From Malachius bipustulatus (Eukaryota; Arthropoda; Insecta; Coleoptera; Melyridae), in contig OU342636.1 of assembly GCA_910589415.1 (NCBI GenBank), positions 40,191,735 to 40,255,734 on the forward strand: a DNA stretch of 64,000 nt. Direction: 5' to 3'. The notes beneath the pieces are model-generated. The model saw nothing but the letters and a program-made list of their open reading frames with translations, ran no database searches and was not told the DNA's origin. The position numbers and the translations under genes are program-made. Shown piece by piece: positions 23,694 through 64,000 of the stretch; positions within the stretch are counted from its first letter, which is position 1; every line of letters starts with the position of its first letter.

Positions 23694-24515
23694 TGAAACG
23701 AATAATTGGCAGATAGACACGTTGGTCGCCACTCGAAACGAACTATTTAACCCCTAGAGGGGAAAAATAGTCTCTGAGAGCATGAGACAAGAAAACAAGG
23801 GTCGTAGGTTGAGTCGCTAGTCTAGGAGGATCAACGCAATAACCAGCAGGTCAGCAGAACAACAGGTACTCTTTATTGAAAAATATAAAATATATCACAG
23901 CTATTAATATGACACTCTTGAGCACGGTTAACAATTAAAAAGAAAAGAGCGTGCGGTTTAGCAGAATGAATTGGTCGGATGCTAGTAGTTCACAAGGCAC
24001 TTAGCTTCGTATGGCTCTTCAGAAGTCTAGCTGGAAGTGGCCTGGATCTTCATGCTTGCTCCGGACAATCTGCTTGGCACGGAAAAGGCAGGTGCCTCAG
24101 GGAATAAGATGGCCTCCAGGAAAAAGATTGCCTCCAAGAAAAAATTGCCTCCAGGGAAAAATTGCCTCCAGGGAAAAGAATGCCTCCAGGGAAAAAGCAA
24201 GCCAAAACGTGAGGGATGGTTATAATAATGAACAGTAAATTCAAGACGCCATTGTCTATTATTCGCAACAGGTATTTGCGTGGACCTTCCTGAGCGAATT
24301 TCCAGGAGAGAACGAAAGCGAAAACGCAGGTATGATGATGAAACGCACCTGATTTCAACTCGACAGTCGAGGTCAACGAGACTCGACGAACTCGAGGCCT
24401 CCAGTCGGCCGTGTTTGCGTCGCACTAAAACCCACCATTACTCACTTACCGCGCGCGCCCGCCGTTGTCTCCGCGTCGCCGGCATTTAGCCGGTACGTAC
24501 AAAATGTACGTTACA
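23694..24515 (-). mobile_element. LTR retrotransposon copy A: LTR + PBS stub + LTR tail, TSD CGTT
   Basis: On the minus strand the LTR runs from TGTAACGTACA (24515) to a GTTTCG end at 23734 (CA changed to CG). It is followed by a primer-binding site TGGCGACCAACGTG (23731-23718) and, after ~25 bp, by a second copy of the LTR's last bases (ATTCGTTTCA, ending at 23694). CGTT flanks both sides (23690-23693 and 24516-24519), a 4-bp target duplication. The LTR contains an AATAAAGAG polyadenylation signal near 23873, an internal minisatellite (24092-24200) and a GC-rich start. The 4-bp TSD, TG...CA ends and tRNA-Lys-like PBS suggest a Gypsy-type element. Internal genes are absent. Confidence 0.85.
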
Positions 24516-25804: not shown

Positions 25805-26885
25805 TGTAACGTACATTTCGTACGTACCGGCTAGATGCCGGTAACACAGAGATGACGGCGGGCGCGCGCAGTGAGTGAGTGATGGTGGGTTTTAGTGCAT
25901 CGGCCGACTGGAGGCCTCGAGTTCGTCGGTTTCGCGACCTCGACTGTCGAGTTGCAATCAGGTGCGTTTCATCATCATACCTGCGTTTTCACTCTCTTTC
26001 TCTCCTGGAAATTCGCGGATGAAGAGTCCGCAAACACCTTAAGTTTCCTGAAATGGTGTCGTGAACTTTCACGTTAATTATTATAAGAATCAACTACGTT
26101 TTTGACTTGGTGAGTGTCGTAAAATGATTTTCTTAATTGTGTTAGAATTATACAGATCATATTTTCTTAATACCGTATGCTAATTAATTACAGCTTTTTA
26201 AATCCGATCAAGTTTCGCTCCGCTTGTAAAACTTTGCGATCACATGTTTGATCTCAACATATCTTGAGGACGGGACATCAATTTATGTACCCTCGGCAAG
26301 CAGACTCGATCGGACCGTTCATTAATGCAAGAGTGTTTCTGATACCCATGAAATTGCAGCTTTTTCCCTACGGATTGATTTTTCCCCGGAGTCAATTTTT
26401 CCCTGGAGGCAATCTTTTTCTTGGAGGCAATCTTTATCTCTGGAGGCAATTTTTCTCTCAAACAAGAAGGCTGATGTTACCTGAGACACCTGAGAAGTTT
26501 ACCGGCTGATGTTACCTGAGACACCTGAGAAGTTTACCACCAACTAAACTTCCACCCTCGCTCCGAAGACCCTACGAAGCTAAGTGCCTTTGCCTACCAA
26601 GGTTTAACCGATCAGTTCATTCAGATTCTACACGCTCTTGCTCCTTATTGTTGTTAACCGTGCTCAAGTTAATAATTTGTGATAATAACTGTGATTTATT
26701 TTAATAAAGAGTACCTGTTGTTCTGCTGACCTGCTTGTTATTGTTGACCCTCTTAGACTAGCGACTCAACCTACGACCCTTGTTTTTTCTTGTCTCATGC
26801 TCTCAGCGACTATTTTTCCCCTCTAGGGTTAAATAGTTCGTTTCAAGTGGCACCCAACGTGTCTATCTGCCACTAATTCGTTTCA
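25805..26885 (+). mobile_element. LTR retrotransposon copy B: LTR + PBS stub + LTR tail, TSD AATA
   Basis: The LTR runs from TGTAACGTACA (25805) to GTTCGTTTCA (26845). It is followed by AGTGGCACCCAACGTG, a short spacer, TGCCACT, and a repeated ATTCGTTTCA ending at 26885. AATA is duplicated on both sides (25801-25804 and 26886-26889). Removing the insert and one AATA restores the reading frame of the surrounding Tc1 pseudogene, which proves the ends. AATAAA at 26703 is the likely polyadenylation signal, about 140 bp before the LTR end. The 3' half of the U3 carries the CCTGGAGGCAA minisatellite (about 26370-26460). There is no internal coding region. It has the same architecture as copy A, in the opposite orientation. 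Confidence 0.9.
26848..26861 (+). promoter_or_regulatory. tRNA-Lys-type primer binding site of LTR copy B
   Basis: TGGCACCCAACGTG begins two bases after the LTR's final CA. It matches the tRNA-Lys PBS form TGGCGCCCAACGTGGGGC (which is complete in copy C) except for one change and a truncated end. It would anneal the tRNA 3' end to prime minus-strand DNA synthesis. Confidence 0.8.
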
Positions 26886-35673: not shown

Positions 35674-36135
35674 ATAAATCCTGGGAAATCGAAGAATTGC
35701 ATCGAGCATGGTCAACAAACCACTCTTGACCCTCCACCATGGCTTAATGCACTTTGGCCACCTCAAGCCAGACTAACGAAAACATCCGCTGAAACTGAGG
35801 GAGTTTACCTGCTTTCAAGATTGCGACAACCTGAGCTACTCCGTAACATTAGGCTATACTTAGCCTATCTTCATGACAGACCTGAGTCAACATGCCTTCA
35901 TGGTGAAACGAAGAACAGCGTCAGATTGCTACTTGCTTCTGAGGGTTTCCCTACTGAGAGAAATGCCCTGATGGCGTATTATAAACGTTTCTACGAGAGC
36001 TATGGATTAACCGGAAGTGACGCCGAGGATGATCTTAAGGCCCTTAGATCACACCTTGCGGCTGAAAACACGAACTACCTCGTGAAAGCAAGGGAAAACT
36101 CAAGAGCATACAATTCCCCTTTTCAGAGGAAGTGA
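35674..36135 (+). CDS. Non-LTR retrotransposon B, ORF1 C-terminal part
   Basis: An open frame runs from just after a stop (35671-35673) to TGA at 36133-36135. It contains ARLTKTSAETEGVYLLSRLR, then LYLAYLHDRPESTCLHGETK and a helical tail ending YNSPFQRK. No zinc knuckle or RRM is visible, so the domain is unknown. Position alone suggests ORF1: it ends in the 4-base overlap GTGA with the start of ORF2, the stop-restart arrangement common in two-ORF non-LTR elements. The first in-frame ATG is not at a clear start, so the element is probably 5'-truncated and the true N-terminus is missing. It could also be a separate gene fragment captured upstream. Confidence 0.5.
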   Translation: MNPGKSKNCIEHGQQTTLDPPPWLNALWPPQARLTKTSAETEGVYLLSRLRQPELLRNIRLYLAYLHDRPESTCLHGETKNSVRLLLASEGFPTERNALMAYYKRFYESYGLTGSDAEDDLKALRSHLAAENTNYLVKARENSRAYNSPFQRK

Positions 36136-39100
36136 CGCGACGGGAGCAAGAACTCTCCTACAAACCACCCTCACCTTCTCCTAGCGTACCTTCCCTTCCA
36201 TACAGCCATCGAATTGTGAGGAGTCAAAACAATTCAACATCTACCTCTCTCACATCAACTGTGCTCTCACCCCATCATTCCAGACATGACTTCCGGGTCC
36301 TACACATAAACATTCAGTCCCTTAACAACTCCGTGGATGGTCTGGGTATCATGATCTCTGATCTGGGATTTCCCGAGTTTGTTTGCTTAAACGAACATTT
36401 CTTAACATCTGACAACATTCAAAAGATCAAAATCGATCATTACAACCTTTCTTCTTCCTTCTGCAGGCAGTCAGATTACGGGGGCTCGGCTATCTATGGC
36501 AGGTCCGACATTCAGTGTAGGGTTGTTCATAACCTCTGCTCTCTTTCGCAGCCACTCGTGTGTGAAATATCGGCAACCGAAACCAAATTTCGGTCTCAGA
36601 AAGCACTAATTATATCTATATATCGATCACCTGCCTGCCCTGTAAGAGATTTCATTCGTCACCTAGACGGATTGCTTGACGTGGCCATCCGGATCACAAA
36701 TAACGTGGTTCTGGCTGCAGACTTCAATATTGACGTACTCTGTGAGAACGCCAACACCTCCAGCCTGACCGAGACTCTCTTCTCTTATGGTTTTCGACTT
36801 TGTTTTAGGGACCCAACAAGAGTTACCAACACCTCGTCAACATGCATCGATAACGTCGCGATTTCTGGTATTTTTCAGTTGCTCGATAGTCAAATCTTGC
36901 CAACTTTTCTATCAGACCACTTTGGACTGCATGTGGCCCTTGGAGTTTCTGAGACGGCCTGCACCCGCGGTCTCGCCGACAAACCCCTGATGACATGGAA
37001 GAGAGATATAAAAGACCCCCTTCTCCTTGCACAGCTGCAAAACGAACTCCGGCGTTTGGGCTGGCACAAAGTTCTGGATGCCCCTGATACGAATTCGAAA
37101 TACTCCTGCTTCTCTGACACTCTTTCATTCTACTTCGACAAATACTTCGCACTCAGGAGATGTAGAGTTCATGGGCCTAGACTCTCCAGTCCCAAGTGGC
37201 TCACCTCTGAAATTCGTCAACTATACGACACGATTAATCTCCTAAATCCTTTAATAAACACGTCCAACCAGCTGTTCAGAACTCAGCTGTGCAGCCTAAA
37301 GCGACGGTTTGGGTACCTGGTGAGGCAGGAGACCAAGCGCTGTAACGACGTCTTTATCAGTGAATCTGAAAATCCCATCAAAGCAGGATGGACCCTCATA
37401 AACAACCAATGCAAGTCAATAAACACTTCGCATAAAATCTTAGAACTTGAGTACCGAAGCAAGGTGACGACTGATCCTGAAGAAATGACAGAGATGCTCA
37501 ATTCCGTCTTTCTTTCAAATGACTCCCCCACATATAGTCACACCCACGGATCCAACATGTCAACACACGCCTCTTCTTCCTTCGTATTTTTTCCGACGTC
37601 ACCTCGGGAAATTATAGAAATAGTTTCTAGGTTTAAAAGTAAGAAGTCTTCGGGCTTGGACGAGATTCCCTCCTTTGTTGCCAGGTATTGCATTGCTGAG
37701 CTTGCTCAGCCATTATCAGAAATTTACAACAGTTCCTTTCAGACTGGTGTATTCCCCGAAGATCTCAAAGCAGCGTTAGTTAAGCCTATTTTTAAAAAGG
37801 GCGACGTCAAAAACCCTGAAAACTACCGACCGATTAGTCTACTATCGGTATTTGATAAAATTCTTGAATCTCTTGTCTCATCTCGTCTTATTGACTTTCT
37901 AGACAAAACAAAGATCCTTTCCCGCTCCCAGCATGGTTTTCTTAAAAACAGATCTACCCAGACGGCTCTTGTAGAGCTTACGGACTTCATATCTCAGGGT
38001 TTGGAGGAGGGGATGCGCACTGTGGGCTGGCTTTTGGATCTCTCCAAGGCCTTCGACAGTGTGTGCCACGAGTGCCTCCTTCGGAAACTGGAGAATGTCG
38101 GAGTTCGTGGATTGCCCCTTTCTTGGTTTACCAGCTACCTACAGGGAAGAACACAGGCGGTTCAGATTACTGGGTCTGATGGCCGACCTGTGCGATCACC
38201 CTTTGCTCCAGTCTCCTCTGGGGTGCCACAGGGTAGTGTTCTCGGTCCACTTCTTTTTCTTATCTTCATTAACGATCTGGGCCCCAAAATTACCTCCCCA
38301 AATTCACTCTGTGTTAACTATGCTGATGATACAACAATTCTTATTAGGATAAAACCAGGCGACCCTCCTAGTCTGATAGATACCATTCAACTCCCGTTGA
38401 AAAGAGCAAGTTTATGGCTCAGGGCCAATGAACTAAAACTTAACTTAGACAAAACTGAACTGATTGATTTTCACTCTAGCCGATCACGTCTTCCACCTTT
38501 ACCCTCCATACCCACCGATGGTGCCTTGATCGAGCCGAAGGGCGTGGTGAAGTTTTTGGGCTTCCACATCGACCAGAACCTAAACTGGGCGGCTCACACA
38601 GATCATTTGTGCCGTCGTCTTGCTAGTGTCTGCTTCCTTCTTAGACGCCTTCAGCACACGGTGTCCCCTGAGGTTCTTCTCTTTGCTTATTATGGGCATT
38701 TCATCAGCCACGTGAACTATGGGCTGGCCGTCTGGGGTGGGTCTGAGAGATCTCTGCGAAGGGTTTTTCTTCTTCAAAAGAGAGCGATTAGGATCCTGAC
38801 AGGCTTGTCAATGCAGCAGTCATGCAGAGGCCATTTCAGGCGGCTTGGGCTTCTTACCGTGCCTGCTTTGTATGTCTTCTCTCTGCTCAAACTGATCCAC
38901 AAAAATCAGGATAGACTTTTACCTTACCGATTCACGCATCACTACAGTACCAGGTTCAATTTGTTTAAACCTCCTAGACACCATCTGTCGTCTTCAGAAA
39001 GGACATTCACGTACGCATCTGTCAAATACCTGAACCACTTCAAAATAGATCCTGCAACTGTTGGGTTCTCAGCGTACAGTGCGTATCTCCGGAAACATCT

Positions 39101-39170
39101 CATGGAGTTGGAACCCTACACTACCTCTGATATACTGTCCTTCCACCCCCCATCCCTACCTGCAGTCTGA
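36132..39170 (+). CDS. Non-LTR retrotransposon B, ORF2: AP endonuclease + reverse transcriptase (intact)
   Basis: 1012 uninterrupted codons. Residues ~55-270 are an apurinic-type endonuclease: RVLHINIQSL (N60), CLNEHF (E88), GGSAIYGR, SIYRSP (165-168), AADFNID (D197), CIDNVAISG (D240) and LSDHFGL (SDH 261-263). Residues ~500-800 are the RT: KKSSGLDEIPSFV, VKPIFKKGDVKNPENYRPIS, SQHGFLKNRSTQTAL, LLDLSKAFDSV (catalytic D642), SGVPQGSVLGPLLFLIFIND, YADD (730-733) and KFLGFHID. There is no RNase H domain. The C-terminal stretch (CRGHFRRLGLLTVPALYVFS) is typical of Jockey/CR1-group proteins. It would nick target DNA and copy its RNA there. The frame begins with GTG in overlap with ORF1. All catalytic residues are present, so the protein may be active or recently so. 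Confidence 0.93.
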   Translation: MTRREQELSYKPPSPSPSVPSLPYSHRIVRSQNNSTSTSLTSTVLSPHHSRHDFRVLHINIQSLNNSVDGLGIMISDLGFPEFVCLNEHFLTSDNIQKIKIDHYNLSSSFCRQSDYGGSAIYGRSDIQCRVVHNLCSLSQPLVCEISATETKFRSQKALIISIYRSPACPVRDFIRHLDGLLDVAIRITNNVVLAADFNIDVLCENANTSSLTETLFSYGFRLCFRDPTRVTNTSSTCIDNVAISGIFQLLDSQILPTFLSDHFGLHVALGVSETACTRGLADKPLMTWKRDIKDPLLLAQLQNELRRLGWHKVLDAPDTNSKYSCFSDTLSFYFDKYFALRRCRVHGPRLSSPKWLTSEIRQLYDTINLLNPLINTSNQLFRTQLCSLKRRFGYLVRQETKRCNDVFISESENPIKAGWTLINNQCKSINTSHKILELEYRSKVTTDPEEMTEMLNSVFLSNDSPTYSHTHGSNMSTHASSSFVFFPTSPREIIEIVSRFKSKKSSGLDEIPSFVARYCIAELAQPLSEIYNSSFQTGVFPEDLKAALVKPIFKKGDVKNPENYRPISLLSVFDKILESLVSSRLIDFLDKTKILSRSQHGFLKNRSTQTALVELTDFISQGLEEGMRTVGWLLDLSKAFDSVCHECLLRKLENVGVRGLPLSWFTSYLQGRTQAVQITGSDGRPVRSPFAPVSSGVPQGSVLGPLLFLIFINDLGPKITSPNSLCVNYADDTTILIRIKPGDPPSLIDTIQLPLKRASLWLRANELKLNLDKTELIDFHSSRSRLPPLPSIPTDGALIEPKGVVKFLGFHIDQNLNWAAHTDHLCRRLASVCFLLRRLQHTVSPEVLLFAYYGHFISHVNYGLAVWGGSERSLRRVFLLQKRAIRILTGLSMQQSCRGHFRRLGLLTVPALYVFSLLKLIHKNQDRLLPYRFTHHYSTRFNLFKPPRHHLSSSERTFTYASVKYLNHFKIDPATVGFSAYSAYLRKHLMELEPYTTSDILSFHPPSLPAV

Positions 39171-48417: not shown

Positions 48418-48640
48418 GCTTTTTCCCTGGAGGCATTTTTTCCCTGGAGGCAATCTTTTTCTTGGAGGCAACTTTTTCCTGGAGGTCATCTTTTCCCTGG
48501 AGTTCACTCTTTTCCCTGGAGGCAACTTTTTCCCCGGAGGCAACTTTTTCCCTGGAGGCAATCTTTTTCTTGGAGGCAACTTTTTCCTGGAGGTCATATT
48601 TTCCCTGGAGTTCACTCTTTTCCCTGGAGGCCATCTTATT
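48418..48640 (+). repeat. LTR minisatellite, ~18-19-bp units
   Basis: About a dozen variants of TTTTCCCTGGAGGCAAC (including TTTCTTGGAGGCAAC and TTCCCTGGAGTTCACTC) in tandem. A higher-order block repeats: the run from AATCTTTTTCTTGGAGGC to GTTCACTCTTTTCCC appears twice (about 48451-48517 and 48559-48627). Homologous but shorter arrays lie in copies A (24092-24200, inverted) and B (26370-26460), so copy number changes between LTRs. Confidence 0.9.
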
Positions 48641-55856: not shown

Positions 55857-57297
55857 GTCAAAATTTAACAATTTTGTCCCTTTTCCTATGCCCGCCACTG
55901 GCTAACTTTACTTGAAAAATACTATTTTTTACACTACCTTTAATAAATTCGGAAAAAACTGAAAGGAGAGTTTTGAAAACCGAAAGTTTGAAATTTTAGA
56001 GGAATAAACATAATTTAAAAATATTCGAATATCTCCGCCATTTTTATATTTGCTTCTTGAAATTTTTGAAGGTTAAATGCTATTAGTATAGTTGTCTACT
56101 ATCAAAATTTCCGTTCTATTCCTTCAAAAATAAGCTCATGAATGTTTATAGAAATGTAGACATTTTTACCCTTTTCCTACCCACGCCTCTGGCTTATTAA
56201 TAGAAATGATGCAAATTGTATTGCATTAGCTCAAATTTCAAATAAGTTTATTCCAATCTTGTTAATTTTGTTTAAAAGTTTTTGATCTTGCCTATTTAGG
56301 GGTTCAAAATCTAGCCATTTTCCAAAAACTGAAAAGGCCGCCATTTTGGAATTTATTTACCTATTTTACTCAAATACAGTACCAGACGACTACTTGAGGG
56401 TATCTTACTACCAAAAAAATTTCAGCGCTCTAGATTGAAAACTTCGACCAGAAACCGTGCCTCACGGACGGTTTTTTTTCTGAAATTCGGAGGGACATCC
56501 TGTAGAAGTAACACAACTCTAGGAAAATGTTTTTTACGAAAATCAAACGTCAGCCCTAAGGTTTATAAGAGTAAAAAATTTCGTTCATTAATCTTGAAAG
56601 ATGAAGCTACAGGAGCGTTTTTAAAAATTTAGAGAAATTAATTTAAAAAAAACATCATGTAAAAAAAAATCGAATATCTCCGCCATTTTTCTTATTTACT
56701 TTTTGAAATTCTCAAGGGTTGAAGTCTATTAGTATAGTTGTCTACTGTAAAAATTTCAGTTTAATTACTTCAAAAATGTGCTCATAAATTGTTGGAGAAA
56801 TTTAGCCATTTTTACCCTTTTCCTACCCACGCCACTGGCTTATTAATAGAAAAAATGCAAATTTTGTTGCATGAAATTAAATTTCAAGTCATTTACTTCC
56901 AATATTGTGAATTTGATATAAAACTCTTTTTCTATCTAGCTTATACAGTGGTTCAAAAAATAGTCCTTTTTCCAAAAATTAAAATGGCCGCCATTTTGAA
57001 ACGGCTTGATCGATTTTGCTCAAGTGCAATACCAGACCACTCCTTGTGGATATCTTACTTCCACAAAAATTTCAGTCTCCTAGATTGAAAACTGCGACCT
57101 GAAATGAGGTGACAAAAACCGGATGTCTGGAACTTTGAAGGGACACCCTGTAGAAGTGATGGGACTTTTGGAAATTTTTTCAACGAAAATCCAACGTCAT
57201 TCCAAAAATTTGCAAGAATCCAAAATTTCGTTCACTAATCTTGAAAGATAAAGCCACAGGAGCGTTTTTAAAATCGAAATTTCGCGATTTTGGAGAA
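55857..57297 (-). repeat. Interspersed repeat with ~640-bp tandem units (minus copy)
   Basis: An inverted relative of 12125-13620. CCCTTTTCCTACCCACGCC occurs at about 56168 and 56815 (647 bp apart), with the diverged first copy (CCCTTTTCCTATGCCCGCCA) at 55878. The junction ATTTCGCGATTTTGGAGAAA next to an AT tract is shared with the plus copy at about 12152-12171. Non-coding. Confidence 0.8.
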
Positions 57298-57357
57298 ATA
57301 TATATATAAATATATATATAAATATATATATAAATATATATATAAATATATATAATA
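57295..57357. repeat. AT microsatellite, TATATATATAAA-type
   Basis: Repeats of ATATATATATAA in a ~12-bp pattern, ending TATAATAATGATGATG. A matching pure AT tract follows the palindrome at 58014-58033, so the palindrome sits between two AT tracts. Confidence 0.9.
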
Positions 57358-57471
57358 ATGATGATGTTAATGAGCGCAAAGAATTAAAAATTCAAAATAA
57401 AATTTAACGGGCATATCGCTCTAACCTAGGGCTTCCTGAGGCAGACCTGACACACAGAGCCATCCAGTCAT

Positions 57472-57531
57472 CTCGAAGCTGCAGACAACGTTGTTTCGGT
57501 CTCTTAGACCTCATCAGTACAGCACATCGAG
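57472..57531 (-). ncRNA. Type I hammerhead ribozyme (left arm, minus strand)
   Basis: Exact mirror of the plus-strand ribozyme at 57872-57931, with the same core (CTGATGA, GAAA, GTC). Predicted cleavage lies 3' of the C complementary to position 57484. All paired and core bases are identical to the other arm. Confidence 0.88.
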
Positions 57532-57871
57532 AAATAACTAGAGGATGCATGCCAGGCCAGCACAGGAAGCCAACTATATGAATAAAGAGGTGACACGGAA
57601 CTCCGTGACCTCAATAGTTGGTTGCCATCTACCGACGGAGACAAGAACTAAACGGCAGCACGCTACCAGCTTTGTGTCCATCAGGAATAGGCAGCCCCGA
57701 ATTGTGGGCTGCCTATTCCTGATGGACACAAAGCTGGTAGCGTGCTGCCGTTTAGTTCTTGTCTCCGTCGGTAGATGGCAACCAACTATTGAGGTCACGG
57801 AGTTCCGTGTCACCTCTTTATTCATATAGTTGGCTTCCTGTGCTGGCCTGGCATGCATCCTCTAGTTATTT

Positions 57872-57931
57872 CTCGATGTGCTGTACTGATGAGGTCTAAG
57901 AGACCGAAACAACGTTGTCTGCAGCTTCGAG
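57872..57931 (+). ncRNA. Type I hammerhead ribozyme (right arm, plus strand)
   Basis: Stem I: CTCG (57872-57875) with CGAG (57928-57931), an internal loop (ATGT/TT), then GCTGTA (57880-57885) with TGCAGC (57920-57925). Core CTGATGA lies at 57886-57892. Stem II is GGTCT-AAG-AGACC (57893-57905). GAAA is at 57906-57909. Stem III is the very short palindrome ACAACGTTGT (57909-57918), followed by cleavage-site C at 57919. Every invariant core position is present. The minimal stem III resembles retroelement hammerheads that work best as dimers. The stem I internal loop is in the place where loop-loop contacts normally form. Confidence 0.92.
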
Positions 57932-58013
57932 ATGACTGGATGGCTCTGTGTGTCAGGTCTGCCTCAGGAAGCCCTAGGTTAGAGCGATATGCCCGTTAAA
58001 TTTTATTTTGAAT

Positions 58014-59684
58014 AAATATATATATATATATATCGTGGGCAGGTGAATTTTGGAAAACCACTTTTTCGTGATCTGGGGGTCATGATCGGTGGACATTTGA
58101 TGAGTTTGGGTGATTTTCGAAAAGTGATGTCGTCCTCAATAGTGTATTTTTTTATTAAAAAAATACACTAATAATCAGCACTTTCAGTCGCGCATCCCTC
58201 TTATGAGAGGAAGGGAGTCCGCCACCCAGGGACGCGCCTCTGGTGTGAGTGTGCCAGGTTGATTTTTCAGATTTTTTTTCTCGCACTGTAGTAAAGTTAA
58301 AGATGAGGATACGCTATTAATGACTTTAGAAGCCATCTAGTGAAATGGTCACTTAAAGAAAAAAGTCACTTGAACGTTTATTGCGTCTTTCCAGATCTGT
58401 CTAATGTGTATTTGGCTCAATAACTCTCCACTTTGTAACGTGTCAAGTATCAAAATATGGAGCCCTCAGGATCATCCATGGAGTTTTACAGGATGCGACA
58501 TTGTGACGTTTCTCTTTAATAATTAAACGTTGCATTTAATCAATTTAAAACTTCCGTCATACAGCCGCTAAGCTGAGAGCTTAGAACTCAAGACTGTGTA
58601 AGCCCAGTGGGGTCATTTTTTTCACCATGGATTACTCCCTCCCCCCCTTCTAATTCATGACCAAAATGCAGGATCTCCAAAATTAAAGGCCCCAAAAAAA
58701 AGACCTGATTGAGACCCCCGATCAAAAAACAGTAGTTAAGAGTTTATTAAGTGCCACTACCTTGATTTTTAAAGTTTTTTTTTCATCACACGGTAGGTGT
58801 GTGTGAAGTGCGATCATTTTAATGACTTTAGAAGCCGATATTTCCCTAAATAAATATTCACATAAAGAATAGAACCATTTTAAAACTTTTATTGCTATTT
58901 TGAAGCCCCGTTGGACTATAATACACAATGAATTGCGGGAAATTTATTTTGTTTTCATCCCTCAGTTGATGCATAGAAAGCTATGAAAAATTTCCTTACT
59001 CATTAGCAGAACAATGTAGGTATGTAGGTATTTACCATTTTAATATCCTCACAATATGTACCGCTATCTTCAATCAGCTGCAGAGGTGGTTTCCTCTCTA
59101 TCCCTGTATTATATAATTGGCCTATATTCAGTCTAATCTCTTCATCGGAGGTTCCGGCAAAGGCTGGCTTGACTGACAGCTGATTTACATGCTGAAACGT
59201 GTTCCAATGACTAATCGCCATTAATATGATAATTTCAGGCCTGAATTTGGATAATTATTAGTATGGTGCGTGTTAATTTTCAACGGAAATGGCCATTGTG
59301 TGGCAGTAGGCCCTTTGTGATTATTGACAGTGGCGCCTTTGTCGACGAAATGTCTCAGATCTAGTTAAAAACTGTTTTAGTCGGTATAATATTGAAGTTC
59401 ACTCAAATTATTAAACTTATTGGAGAATAATCATTTATAGGTACTTAGTTTTTTCCGGAGTAAATTTTATTTTGTATTTGTCTGTTATTTGCTTAGAAAA
59501 ATCTCTCATCCCATCACTATACCTAGTAACTTTATCGTAGAAAAATATTTTTTTTATCAAACATGAATAGGGCTTTATATGGGTAATTTTTCAAAAAGAA
59601 AATTTTTATAGTTAAAAAAAGCACTACTGTGTTAAATAAATCTATAAAGGTACTACTGCAAAAAATTAGGGGAACACTTTTTTA
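58014..59684. other. Unassigned DNA with a 31-bp palindrome
   Basis: The AT tract after the main palindrome is followed by unassigned sequence. At 58140-58170 there is a 31-bp palindrome (TAGTGTATTTTTTTATT...AATACACTA) nearly identical to one at 12095-12124 beside the plus copy of the ~640-bp repeat. No genes recognised in the rest. Confidence 0.5.
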
Positions 59685-61624: not shown

Positions 61625-64000
61625 CCAAAAAGGGTTTCCCTAGAATGTACATAGAAACATACATTAAAACTCTAACGCTCTGGTTATTAGATTAAATAAA
61701 CATTGATTACAGTATTAATATAATAATATGCAATTTTGCTTAATACTGTTCATTGGTTCATGGTATTCAAGAAAAAGTTTTTCCTTCATGACAGTGTATT
61801 GTGGATTATTCAAATGTTCATTTTAGTCGACTTCAAGATATCTAGACGTTTGCCATTATGTAAGCTGCGCTGAAATTTGAAGAGTTAAGTCGATATATTC
61901 TTCATTCTCATCATTTATGTTTTGTTCAACACAATACGTTCCATATAATAATATATTTATTTTTTATTATGTGTATCGTGGGTCTGACTGATATGCCATG
62001 CTGATGAGTTCATAATAAAGACGAAACGGTACCGTCCATGTCTTTAGTTTCACCTCACATACTGATAATATATTCATATAAGGCTTATAAGAAACACTAC
62101 CATGATAAGCTATGTAAGTATGTATTTGAAATTATTTTTGAAATTTGTTTCTACATAACTGCACAGAATAAACTCGGACCGTTCAATCTCATAAAAAAGA
62201 CACAAAAATGCTTGTAAAATGTGCAAAAATGATGTGCCAAATTTCAAGGTTTCTTTTACAATAATTAATTCTATATCATAAAGTCCTAAGAAGACATAAT
62301 CTCACTCATAATCAAGTCATCGTTGTATAAATTTGTAATAAATTAACAACAAATTAACGTAGGTACCCAAAATAAAAGGCGGACAATAGATTTTAACATA
62401 TTTTTAAATCTCTTTAACCGAGTCAGTCAACGTGAAGATTTTCTTGATAAATTCCACACCACAGAAACTTGGAATTCGGGAACAATGAACGGACGTTAGG
62501 ATTGTTATAATTACGAGCATCTGATTAAATGGTAATTCAGTGCATTACTTTTAGATAAAAAATTCCACATTTTGTTTTCGTCATACAAATGACGAAATAA
62601 ATCATTTACTATCACCGCATTGAGCTACCATATTATACATACCAAACATAATAGGTACACCTATTTTCTTGGAAATTGTTGCACTATGTAGATAAATATC
62701 TACATAATATAATTAGGTATCTGATTTTAGTTTTCAGAGCAGATATATAAATTTTTTGGAGATGAATAATGCATACGTTGAATATACCTAAAAAAAGTCC
62801 TGCTTAAACCGGATAATAAAATATAATGGAGAAAACAGAAAATGAAGTAACTGTTTAAAAGAAATTTTTCACTTTCTCTGTGATATGATCATGTCTATAA
62901 TTGACTAACAATAATAGACCGTTATTTTATACCTTATGTTATGCACTTGGTATTCTTCAGGGTGTAACAGCGCATAGAGAAGTTGCTGGAGTCTCAATAA
63001 CACCCAGAGAATTTAAATCGATTGTTAGATCGATTGTATTGATGAAGCAAGAGACATCGTACACAAGATATAGGTACATTAGGCACGCTTTCAGAAACCG
63101 CATTATTCATCCGTTGCATAGAATCTCTGTGTGTGGTCCGAAACAAATTGGCTTATTTCAAAGAGGACTCAAACTAGTTTTCTTTTAAGGGTGTAAATAA
63201 ATCAGGATGGAATCAAGGAATAAGATTATAAAGACCAGCAAGAGCATAAAAAACTGCTTGATCAAGAAAATCATAAACATGCCCGTAAAGTATCCTTGAA
63301 TTTCCATAAACATGAACCATATTGTGACGCGATAATAGCTTGAACTGTTAAAGCGTTTTCATACGATCCGGTTCCGAGGCAATATGGCATCTGAACTGTG
63401 AGTGAAGTTATCCACACTAATCCAGCAACACGCCTATGCTCTCCACTTAGAAGCAAAGTGTAGTGTGAAAAGTCTATGAGAAAAGATGGATAGGAGACGT
63501 TCAATGGAGATAGCTCTGATTGATGTCATGATAAGCGAAAATTCGGAAAAGTAAAGTGAAAAACGGAAAATTCTGAGTACAGCTACTATTGAGAGTCTGG
63601 ATTGGTATCGATCATTTTAATCATACTTCAGCTTCCGTATTGCCTTGAGAGGAATTACTGCATCCGGTAAACCGCATCAAAACAGGATCTTATAGTCCAA
63701 AAGTGTTACCCGAAAGACGTGGGTCCCCGTCCCCTCCTCATCTTCCCAAACAATTTTTTATATTGAAGATATTAAACATCACAATCCAGCTGGACAAAGC
63801 TATAATATCGTTTTCTAGAAAAACTTAACTATTTCTAAAGCAATTCAGAAAATGGGTCCGTTTGGAAATTTTTTAAGGTTTACAAAAAGTTATTAAACAA
63901 CATTTCTTATACAGGGTGGGTCATCAAAAAGGTAACAGGCCTAATAATTTTGAAACCGCAGATGGATGCGAAAAACCCGTCGATTTTTTTATTGAGGGTT
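61625..64000. other. Unassigned AT-rich DNA
   Basis: Short open frames only (62901-63188, 95 codons, not recognised). ACAGGGTGGGTCATCAAAAA at about 63912 looks like the start of another repeat running off the window. Confidence 0.35.

Follow-up and report, generated by a model that had tools for sequence, protein, structure and literature searches.

A hammerhead palindrome of Malachius bipustulatus belongs to a family of head-to-head retrozyme arrays, probably mobilised by Penelope-like elements

The window analysed here is a stretch of 64,000 nucleotides of the Malachius bipustulatus genome (contig OU342636.1). It contains a palindrome of 624 bp in total, in which two arms of 308 nt are 100% complementary and are separated by an 8-nt spacer, CGAATTGT (Table 1). 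A complete type I hammerhead motif is present in each arm. The preliminary description of this DNA had reported a near-perfect palindrome mismatched only at the centre, with an identical type I hammerhead on each of its two inverted arms; both points were confirmed by the motif and inverted-repeat analyses. The retrozyme insertion extends beyond the palindrome, and the extra 38 nt are found on the left arm only. On the 428-nt repeat unit of the family, the left part of the insertion (57352–57709) runs from unit position 132 back to 203, and the right part (57694–58013) runs from 203 to 94. The two parts overlap exactly by 4 nt at the joint, and the centre lies between GCCC and GGGC. One ribozyme is located on each strand. 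As unit positions of about 133–202 are absent from both arms, the window copy should release no full unit.

Table 1. Features of the retrozyme insertion and its flanks in the window
Feature	Position	Strand	Basis
Whole retrozyme insertion, 662 bp	57352..58013	left arm −, right arm +, outward from centre	mapping on the 428-nt unit
'Tail', 38 nt (unit about 95–132), outer end A	57352..57389	−	unit mapping; left arm only
Palindrome left arm	57390..57697	−	inverted-repeat search
Centre / inner joint CGAATTGT, flanks GCCC/GGGC	57698..57705	.	inverted repeat; 4-nt exact overlap
Palindrome right arm, outer end B (unit 94)	57706..58013	+	inverted repeat and unit mapping
Type I hammerhead, predicted cut 57919/57920	57872..57931	+	sequence; Rfam HH9 25.1 bits, below gathering; sparing in variant unit
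Hammerhead of left arm, predicted cut 57484/57483	57472..57531	−	mirror of right copy; Rfam HH9 at 57462–57535
(TA)n-rich target tract, left	57296..57351	.	sequence
(TA)n target tract, right	58014..58033	.	sequence
Dispersed target repeat, one side	57151..57295	.	also beside other insertions and in empty copies
Dispersed target repeat, other side	58034..58180	.	also beside other insertions and in empty copies

No Pfam domain was detected near the palindrome at E 0.01 (two of six frames, 50–64 kb). Elsewhere in the window, a 1034-aa open frame with reverse transcriptase (RT) and endonuclease/exonuclease/phosphatase domains is located at 36066–39170 (+). It corresponds to a LINE unrelated to the palindrome, and the best protein identity of its RT part is 43% among the matches listed. 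Minisatellites with CCCTGGAGGCA-like units in both orientations are present at 24093–24197, 26378–26458 and 48419–48637.

In the hammerhead of the right arm, 57886 is the first position of CTGATGAG and C57919 is the last position of the core. The motif places the predicted cut immediately after this residue, as the preliminary description had proposed. Stem III is the self-complementary ACAACGTTGT, and stems I and II can be paired as read from the sequence. No Rfam model gave a match at its gathering score in the window. At the E-value level, Hammerhead_HH9 was matched at 57868–57941 (+) and 57462–57535 (−). The score of 25.1 bits is below the gathering score of 52 and the E-value for the whole window is 0.069, so the covariance-model check that had been suggested earlier is weak by itself. 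Rfam matches to microRNA and plastid UTR models over the palindrome were also below gathering, and were attributed to a long hairpin that suits models of this shape.

A search for other head-to-head or tandem copies had also been proposed. In the 544-Mb assembly (52 contigs), the hammerhead core with up to two mismatches was found at 667 places, which are almost equally divided between the strands (333 and 334), and head-to-head arrays were obtained. The reversed control pattern gave no match, and a scan of viral contigs for the core likewise gave none. The core is present in all mapped full units. One variant unit of 423 nt is changed at only 1 of 63 hammerhead positions, against 59 of 365 positions elsewhere (Fisher p 6.6e-4), and the single change leaves a G-U pair in the pairing drawn. 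The predicted folding of the isolated 60-mer counts against the motif. Its hammerhead fold (−15.9) is 1.8 kcal/mol above the predicted minimum (−17.7), and 15 of 200 shuffled sequences fold at least equally well (z −1.56). According to the genome-wide matches and the sparing in the variant unit, the predicted hammerhead is lifted above chance. As the ribozyme is spared in the variant unit, these sequence comparisons suggest that self-cleavage matters to the element.

The repeat unit in the longer arrays is 428 nt in length, and units of 427, 423 or about 435 nt are found at three loci. It is non-coding, with a GC content of 47% and a longest stop-free stretch of 68 aa, and no open reading frame for RT and GIY-YIG domains is present inside the element. 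Folded as a circle, the unit beats 100 shuffled sequences (z −5.8). The insertions of this family (family 1) are arranged head-to-head, in arrays that range in size from 83 bp to 24 kb. No LTR arrangement was seen among the mapped loci. Judged from these sequence features, the palindrome represents a small mobile element whose RNA is predicted to cut itself.

The fetched loci were mapped on the unit, with positions counted from the predicted cut. At the mapped loci, the copies on the left side run leftwards and the copies on the right side run rightwards. The outer ends are located in two zones, unit 84–101 (end B) and unit 128–141 (end A). One A end and one B end were found in each of the 27 insertions for which both ends were placed. 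Both ends were read by letters in 21 of the 27, and at least one end was placed by an end-pattern match in the other six (C16:40.36, C3:58.2, C4:8.28, C13:27.85, C3:51.14 and C6:21.63M). The two outer ends are offset by 27–52 nt in 25/25 loci. In the 25-locus set used for arm lengths, from which two of the 27 insertions (63.9M and 5.44M, the latter with a nested insertion) were omitted, the A end is on the left in 16 loci. Several loci were left out of the 27. The left side of 38.3M is a run of N, possibly an assembly gap, the far ends of C4:18.81M and C18:1.43M are outside the fetched sequence, and C17:0.7M has one arm followed by unrelated sequence. The B-end loci C2:34.99M and C16:1.53M are also outside the count. 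C6:36.1M was considered as a single 18-kb insertion, and this was rejected, with 2.4 kb from its middle holding no unit.

The loci on C1 provide the fair test of the end rule, because the other loci had been chosen by their ends (by the B end or by both), a bias that the C1 set alone escapes. This set consists of 11 loci found by the ribozyme, among the first 100 listed of the 667 core places, and 74.36M found by its arm. Both ends were readable in 11 of the 12 loci, the twelfth being 38.3M, and all 11 have one A end and one B end. Separate searches with the end patterns gave 16 neighbouring pairs less than 25 kb apart among the matches listed, with C6:36.1M counted here. All of them are divergent A+B pairs, and neither A+A nor B+B was found among these 16. 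In these searches 100 of 110 A-end matches were taken; a partner was missing from the listing for 8 of 24 B-end loci and for 31 of 47 A-end loci.

The preliminary description regarded direct tandem repeats as the usual order and the inversion as peculiar to this locus. Tandem arrays do exist in this genome, but they run outward in both directions, and every insertion with both ends placed is head-to-head (27/27). For this reason the head-to-head form more likely reflects the mode of integration than a small-RNA device, which makes the proposal of a self-trimming hairpin RNA as a device of this locus the less likely one. The alternative proposal, a dead-end head-to-head insertion, is probably correct for the window copy, which lacks a full unit, but not as something special to the locus. 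The proposed young age is borne out by the arm matches listed, of which 40 of 42 are full-length and 100% identical, and the proposed kinship with the hammerheads of Penelope-like elements (PLEs) and retrozymes was judged right. The window copy is young and probably sterile, and the family that produced it appears to have been active recently.

The lengths of the two arms within an insertion are correlated (Spearman 0.91 for 25 loci, from 18 nt to 12 kb), and none of 20,000 permutations was as close. Pairs of 12,026/12,059, 8,783/9,230 and 484/487 nt were observed, and also one of 1,990/596 nt. The longest array (24 kb, C1:40.5M) has 28.0 turns of a 427-nt unit in each arm of 12 kb. Sequence variants are common to both arms of a locus in 27 cases, against 4.4 in shuffled pairings (maximum 21; 0/5000; 22 loci). 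Only 2 of the 31 locus-private variants that could be covered by both arms are present in both, so the signal of shared variants is mostly subfamily identity. The inner joints are located at many unit positions. They could be computed for 20 of the 25 loci; 13 have an overlap of 0–4 nt and 7 have 1–25 unmatched nucleotides. As read from the sequence, such overlaps and unmatched nucleotides fit what end joining would leave.

The insertions are located at AT-rich sites. A (TA)4 or longer tract lies within 40 nt of the outer end at 45 of 50 ends, compared with 25 of 5000 positions drawn at random from the window, but many of these loci had been selected with an end pattern that itself contains TA. 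For the C1 loci the number is 18 of 23 ends. One dispersed repeat was recognised at 27 of 50 ends overall and at 11 of 23 on C1. The insertion in the window is bordered by one side of this repeat on the left and by its other side on the right. Two empty copies of the repeat run uninterrupted through the (TA)n tract. The region 56041–57273 of the window and flanks elsewhere show that the dispersed repeat consists of two diverged copies of a unit of about 646 bp beside (TA)n, and that it is a target of both retrozymes and PLEs. A target site duplication of the PLE type (8–10 bp) would be masked by (TA)n.

At 61984–62064 (+), the window carries a relic of another, unrelated family of type I hammerheads (Rfam Hammerhead_1, 22.4 bits, below gathering). 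The unit of this family (family 2) is 573 nt long, and its core was matched at 720 genomic sites. The first 100 of these sites as listed form 71 clusters, of which 16 are divergent, 2 are one-stranded and 53 are single; no other order was found. Ten of the 16 divergent clusters were read, and 9 of them have one end at 159–167 and the other at 114–133. The exception, L068, has ends at 116 and 126, both B-like. By eye, AACTCAGAA flanks the family-2 copy L071, and a similar flanking repeat was seen at L025; it is not clear at other family-2 loci. The copy at L025 (1913–2888) is a palindrome with perfect 459-nt arms nested in the family-1 insertion at C1:5.44M.

PLEs are commonly ranked as the third class of retroelements in eukaryotes. 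In this genome, GIY-YIG matches were scored for 150 of 775 candidates, and many of them are located in open frames of 823–855 aa. Among the matches listed for a PLE protein of this genome, the relatives with a named source are from beetles, including Coccinella with 43–48% identity, and other matches reach 55%. Neighbouring GIY-YIG matches within 8 kb are divergent in 23 cases, convergent in 2 and on the same strand in 47. The small contig C11:3382-82839 is approximately one PLE array by its GIY-YIG matches, with 6 on the minus strand and then 18 on the plus strand, 3.3 kb apart. As far as can be read from the loci, two hammerhead-bearing PLE families have the same anatomy as the retrozymes. 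In 5 of 6 insertions with both ends read, a tail of 34 or 35 nt is present at one end only. The sixth lacks a tail at either end, but on one side it runs into a stretch of N, with a further copy beyond. One more PLE locus (C14:42.47M) was not counted, as one end is outside the fetched sequence. Between the retrozyme and the PLE loci L052–L057, only matches of 17–19 nt were found (E 0.028 or more).

We propose, with a probability of about 0.7, that the element is a non-autonomous non-LTR retrozyme mobilised by a resident GIY-YIG PLE, and that two cut DNA ends each prime one cDNA. The hammerhead would trim the RNA to a unit of about 428 nt, which would probably be closed to a circle. The PLE enzyme would then cut both strands of an AT-rich site, mostly (TA)n. 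The two free 3' ends would each prime one cDNA on the retrozyme RNA, one at unit position of about 132 (end A) and the other at about 94 (end B). The interval of about 38 nt between the two start sites would be the counterpart of the PLE 'tail'. Both cDNAs would run in the same direction along the RNA, often for several turns and to similar lengths. Their inner ends would be united by end joining, and both arms of a head-to-head array would arise in a single event. If both cDNAs stop within the first turn, as may be the case for the window copy, a palindrome would be produced. A circular template is pointed to by the repeated identical turns. Two-ended priming is opposed by L068 with its two B-like ends, by the PLE locus without a tail on either side, and by the comparison of the retrozyme with the PLE loci, in which no sequence kinship was found. 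As a more specific version, with an even chance of being right, two RT units, one per cut strand and each with its own start site, would move in step round one RNA circle, and host end joining would close the centre. If true, this version would account at once for the tail and inverted pLTRs of PLEs, for the tandem arrays, and for the circle-making ribozyme that retrozymes carry.

A palindrome might also be formed by fold-back, in which a target-primed cDNA folds over at its free end and serves as its own template for the second arm. The window copy itself resembles such a product, with symmetric inner ends (unit 203 on both sides) and a centre of only 8 nt. The inner ends lie within 40 nt of each other in 9 of 25 loci, against 4.7 expected (p 0.04; KS p 0.03), and in 11 of 25 loci the arm lengths are within 60 nt of each other. 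The closeness of the inner ends would be given either by in-step synthesis or by occasional fold-back. However, the inner ends are more than 40 nt apart in the other 16 loci, 14 arm pairs differ by more than 60 nt, and most of the computed joints have the short overlap or filler described above. Moreover, fold-back should give the second arm the same outer end as the first, but the outer ends differ in every locus of the set, with a second fixed site. We consider fold-back unlikely as the general route, although it may have formed some copies, the one in the window among them. Two-ended priming on a long linear tandem transcript instead of a circle appears quite improbable. In its favour, the genome contains tandem source arrays and, according to the available text of PMC11167929, the PLE of Anolis accepts unprocessed RNA in vitro. 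The arms at C1:40.5M, on the other hand, would need a template of 28 turns and 12 kb bearing 28 predicted active ribozymes, and the sampled arms at 74.36M contain only 3 and 2 distinct sequences among 14 and 20 units; these two observations are not decisive.

The remaining explanations are very improbable. A fold-back or MITE-like DNA transposon with a captured hammerhead would account for the perfect palindrome shape, but the family includes multimers of as much as 24 kb, its outer ends are asymmetric and its inner ends vary, unlike fixed symmetric terminal inverted repeats. False hairpin joins in the assembly could be suspected from the runs of N that border some loci (38.3M and L084). Against such an artefact, head-to-head arrays are present at many loci with different flanks and different joints, and where the target repeat was recognised on both sides, the sides are its two different halves.

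Several elements of the two-ended priming model are already published, namely the inverted arrangement of pLTRs, the 'tail', the use of two start sites by RT, and assistance to retrozymes from PLEs. The available text of PMC11167929 (2024) describes a PLE protein that cleaves both strands and extends them, with reverse transcription starting at two sites bounding the tail. The start site did not differ between the strands in vitro, so that study does not predict the rule of one A end and one B end per insertion. According to the same text, the Anolis PLE did not need its ribozyme and the later integration steps were left unvalidated; inverted copies, circular RNA and retrozymes are not mentioned in it. 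PLE copies with head-to-head pLTRs, one of which carries the tail, are described in the accessible part of PMC3846280, where self-priming on an antisense template, an idea akin to fold-back, is proposed for head-to-head PLEs of Adineta. For animal retrozymes, circular and possibly target-primed templates and possible help from PLEs are proposed in PMC7229834, in the available text of which the words 'inverted' and 'head-to-head' are absent. In our literature search, which covered subscription papers only to a small extent, no description of head-to-head retrozyme arrays or of the A+B end rule was found. The short, young and near-identical retrozyme copies would offer a clean record of PLE integration, including the priming ends, the sites, the extent of synthesis and the joining. 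In addition, their structure would strengthen the proposal, already in print, that animal retrozymes are mobilised by PLEs.

In LINE-1 twin priming, two DNA ends prime on one RNA, and an inversion is produced through end joining. It is an occasional by-product on linear poly(A) RNA, whereas the retrozyme arrangement is observed in every placed insertion, with two fixed internal sites and many turns. The metazoan non-LTR retrozymes, as given in the accessible text of PMC7229834, share with the present element the type I hammerhead, short non-coding tandem units, a GC content below 50% and co-existence with PLEs. Their units are 150–450 bp; family 1 (428 nt) is inside this range, and family 2 (573 nt) is longer. 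They differ in that each insertion here consists of two head-to-head arrays with one A end and one B end. The GIY-YIG PLEs, according to the available portions of PMC3846280 and PMC11167929, share the head-to-head arms, a tail of 30–40 bp on one inverted end, the AT-rich targets, the hammerhead and possibly the short target site duplications, and the start sites in vitro bound the tail. In contrast to these PLEs, for which the published inverted copies were explained by self-priming, the retrozyme has no open reading frame and its template would be turned many times.
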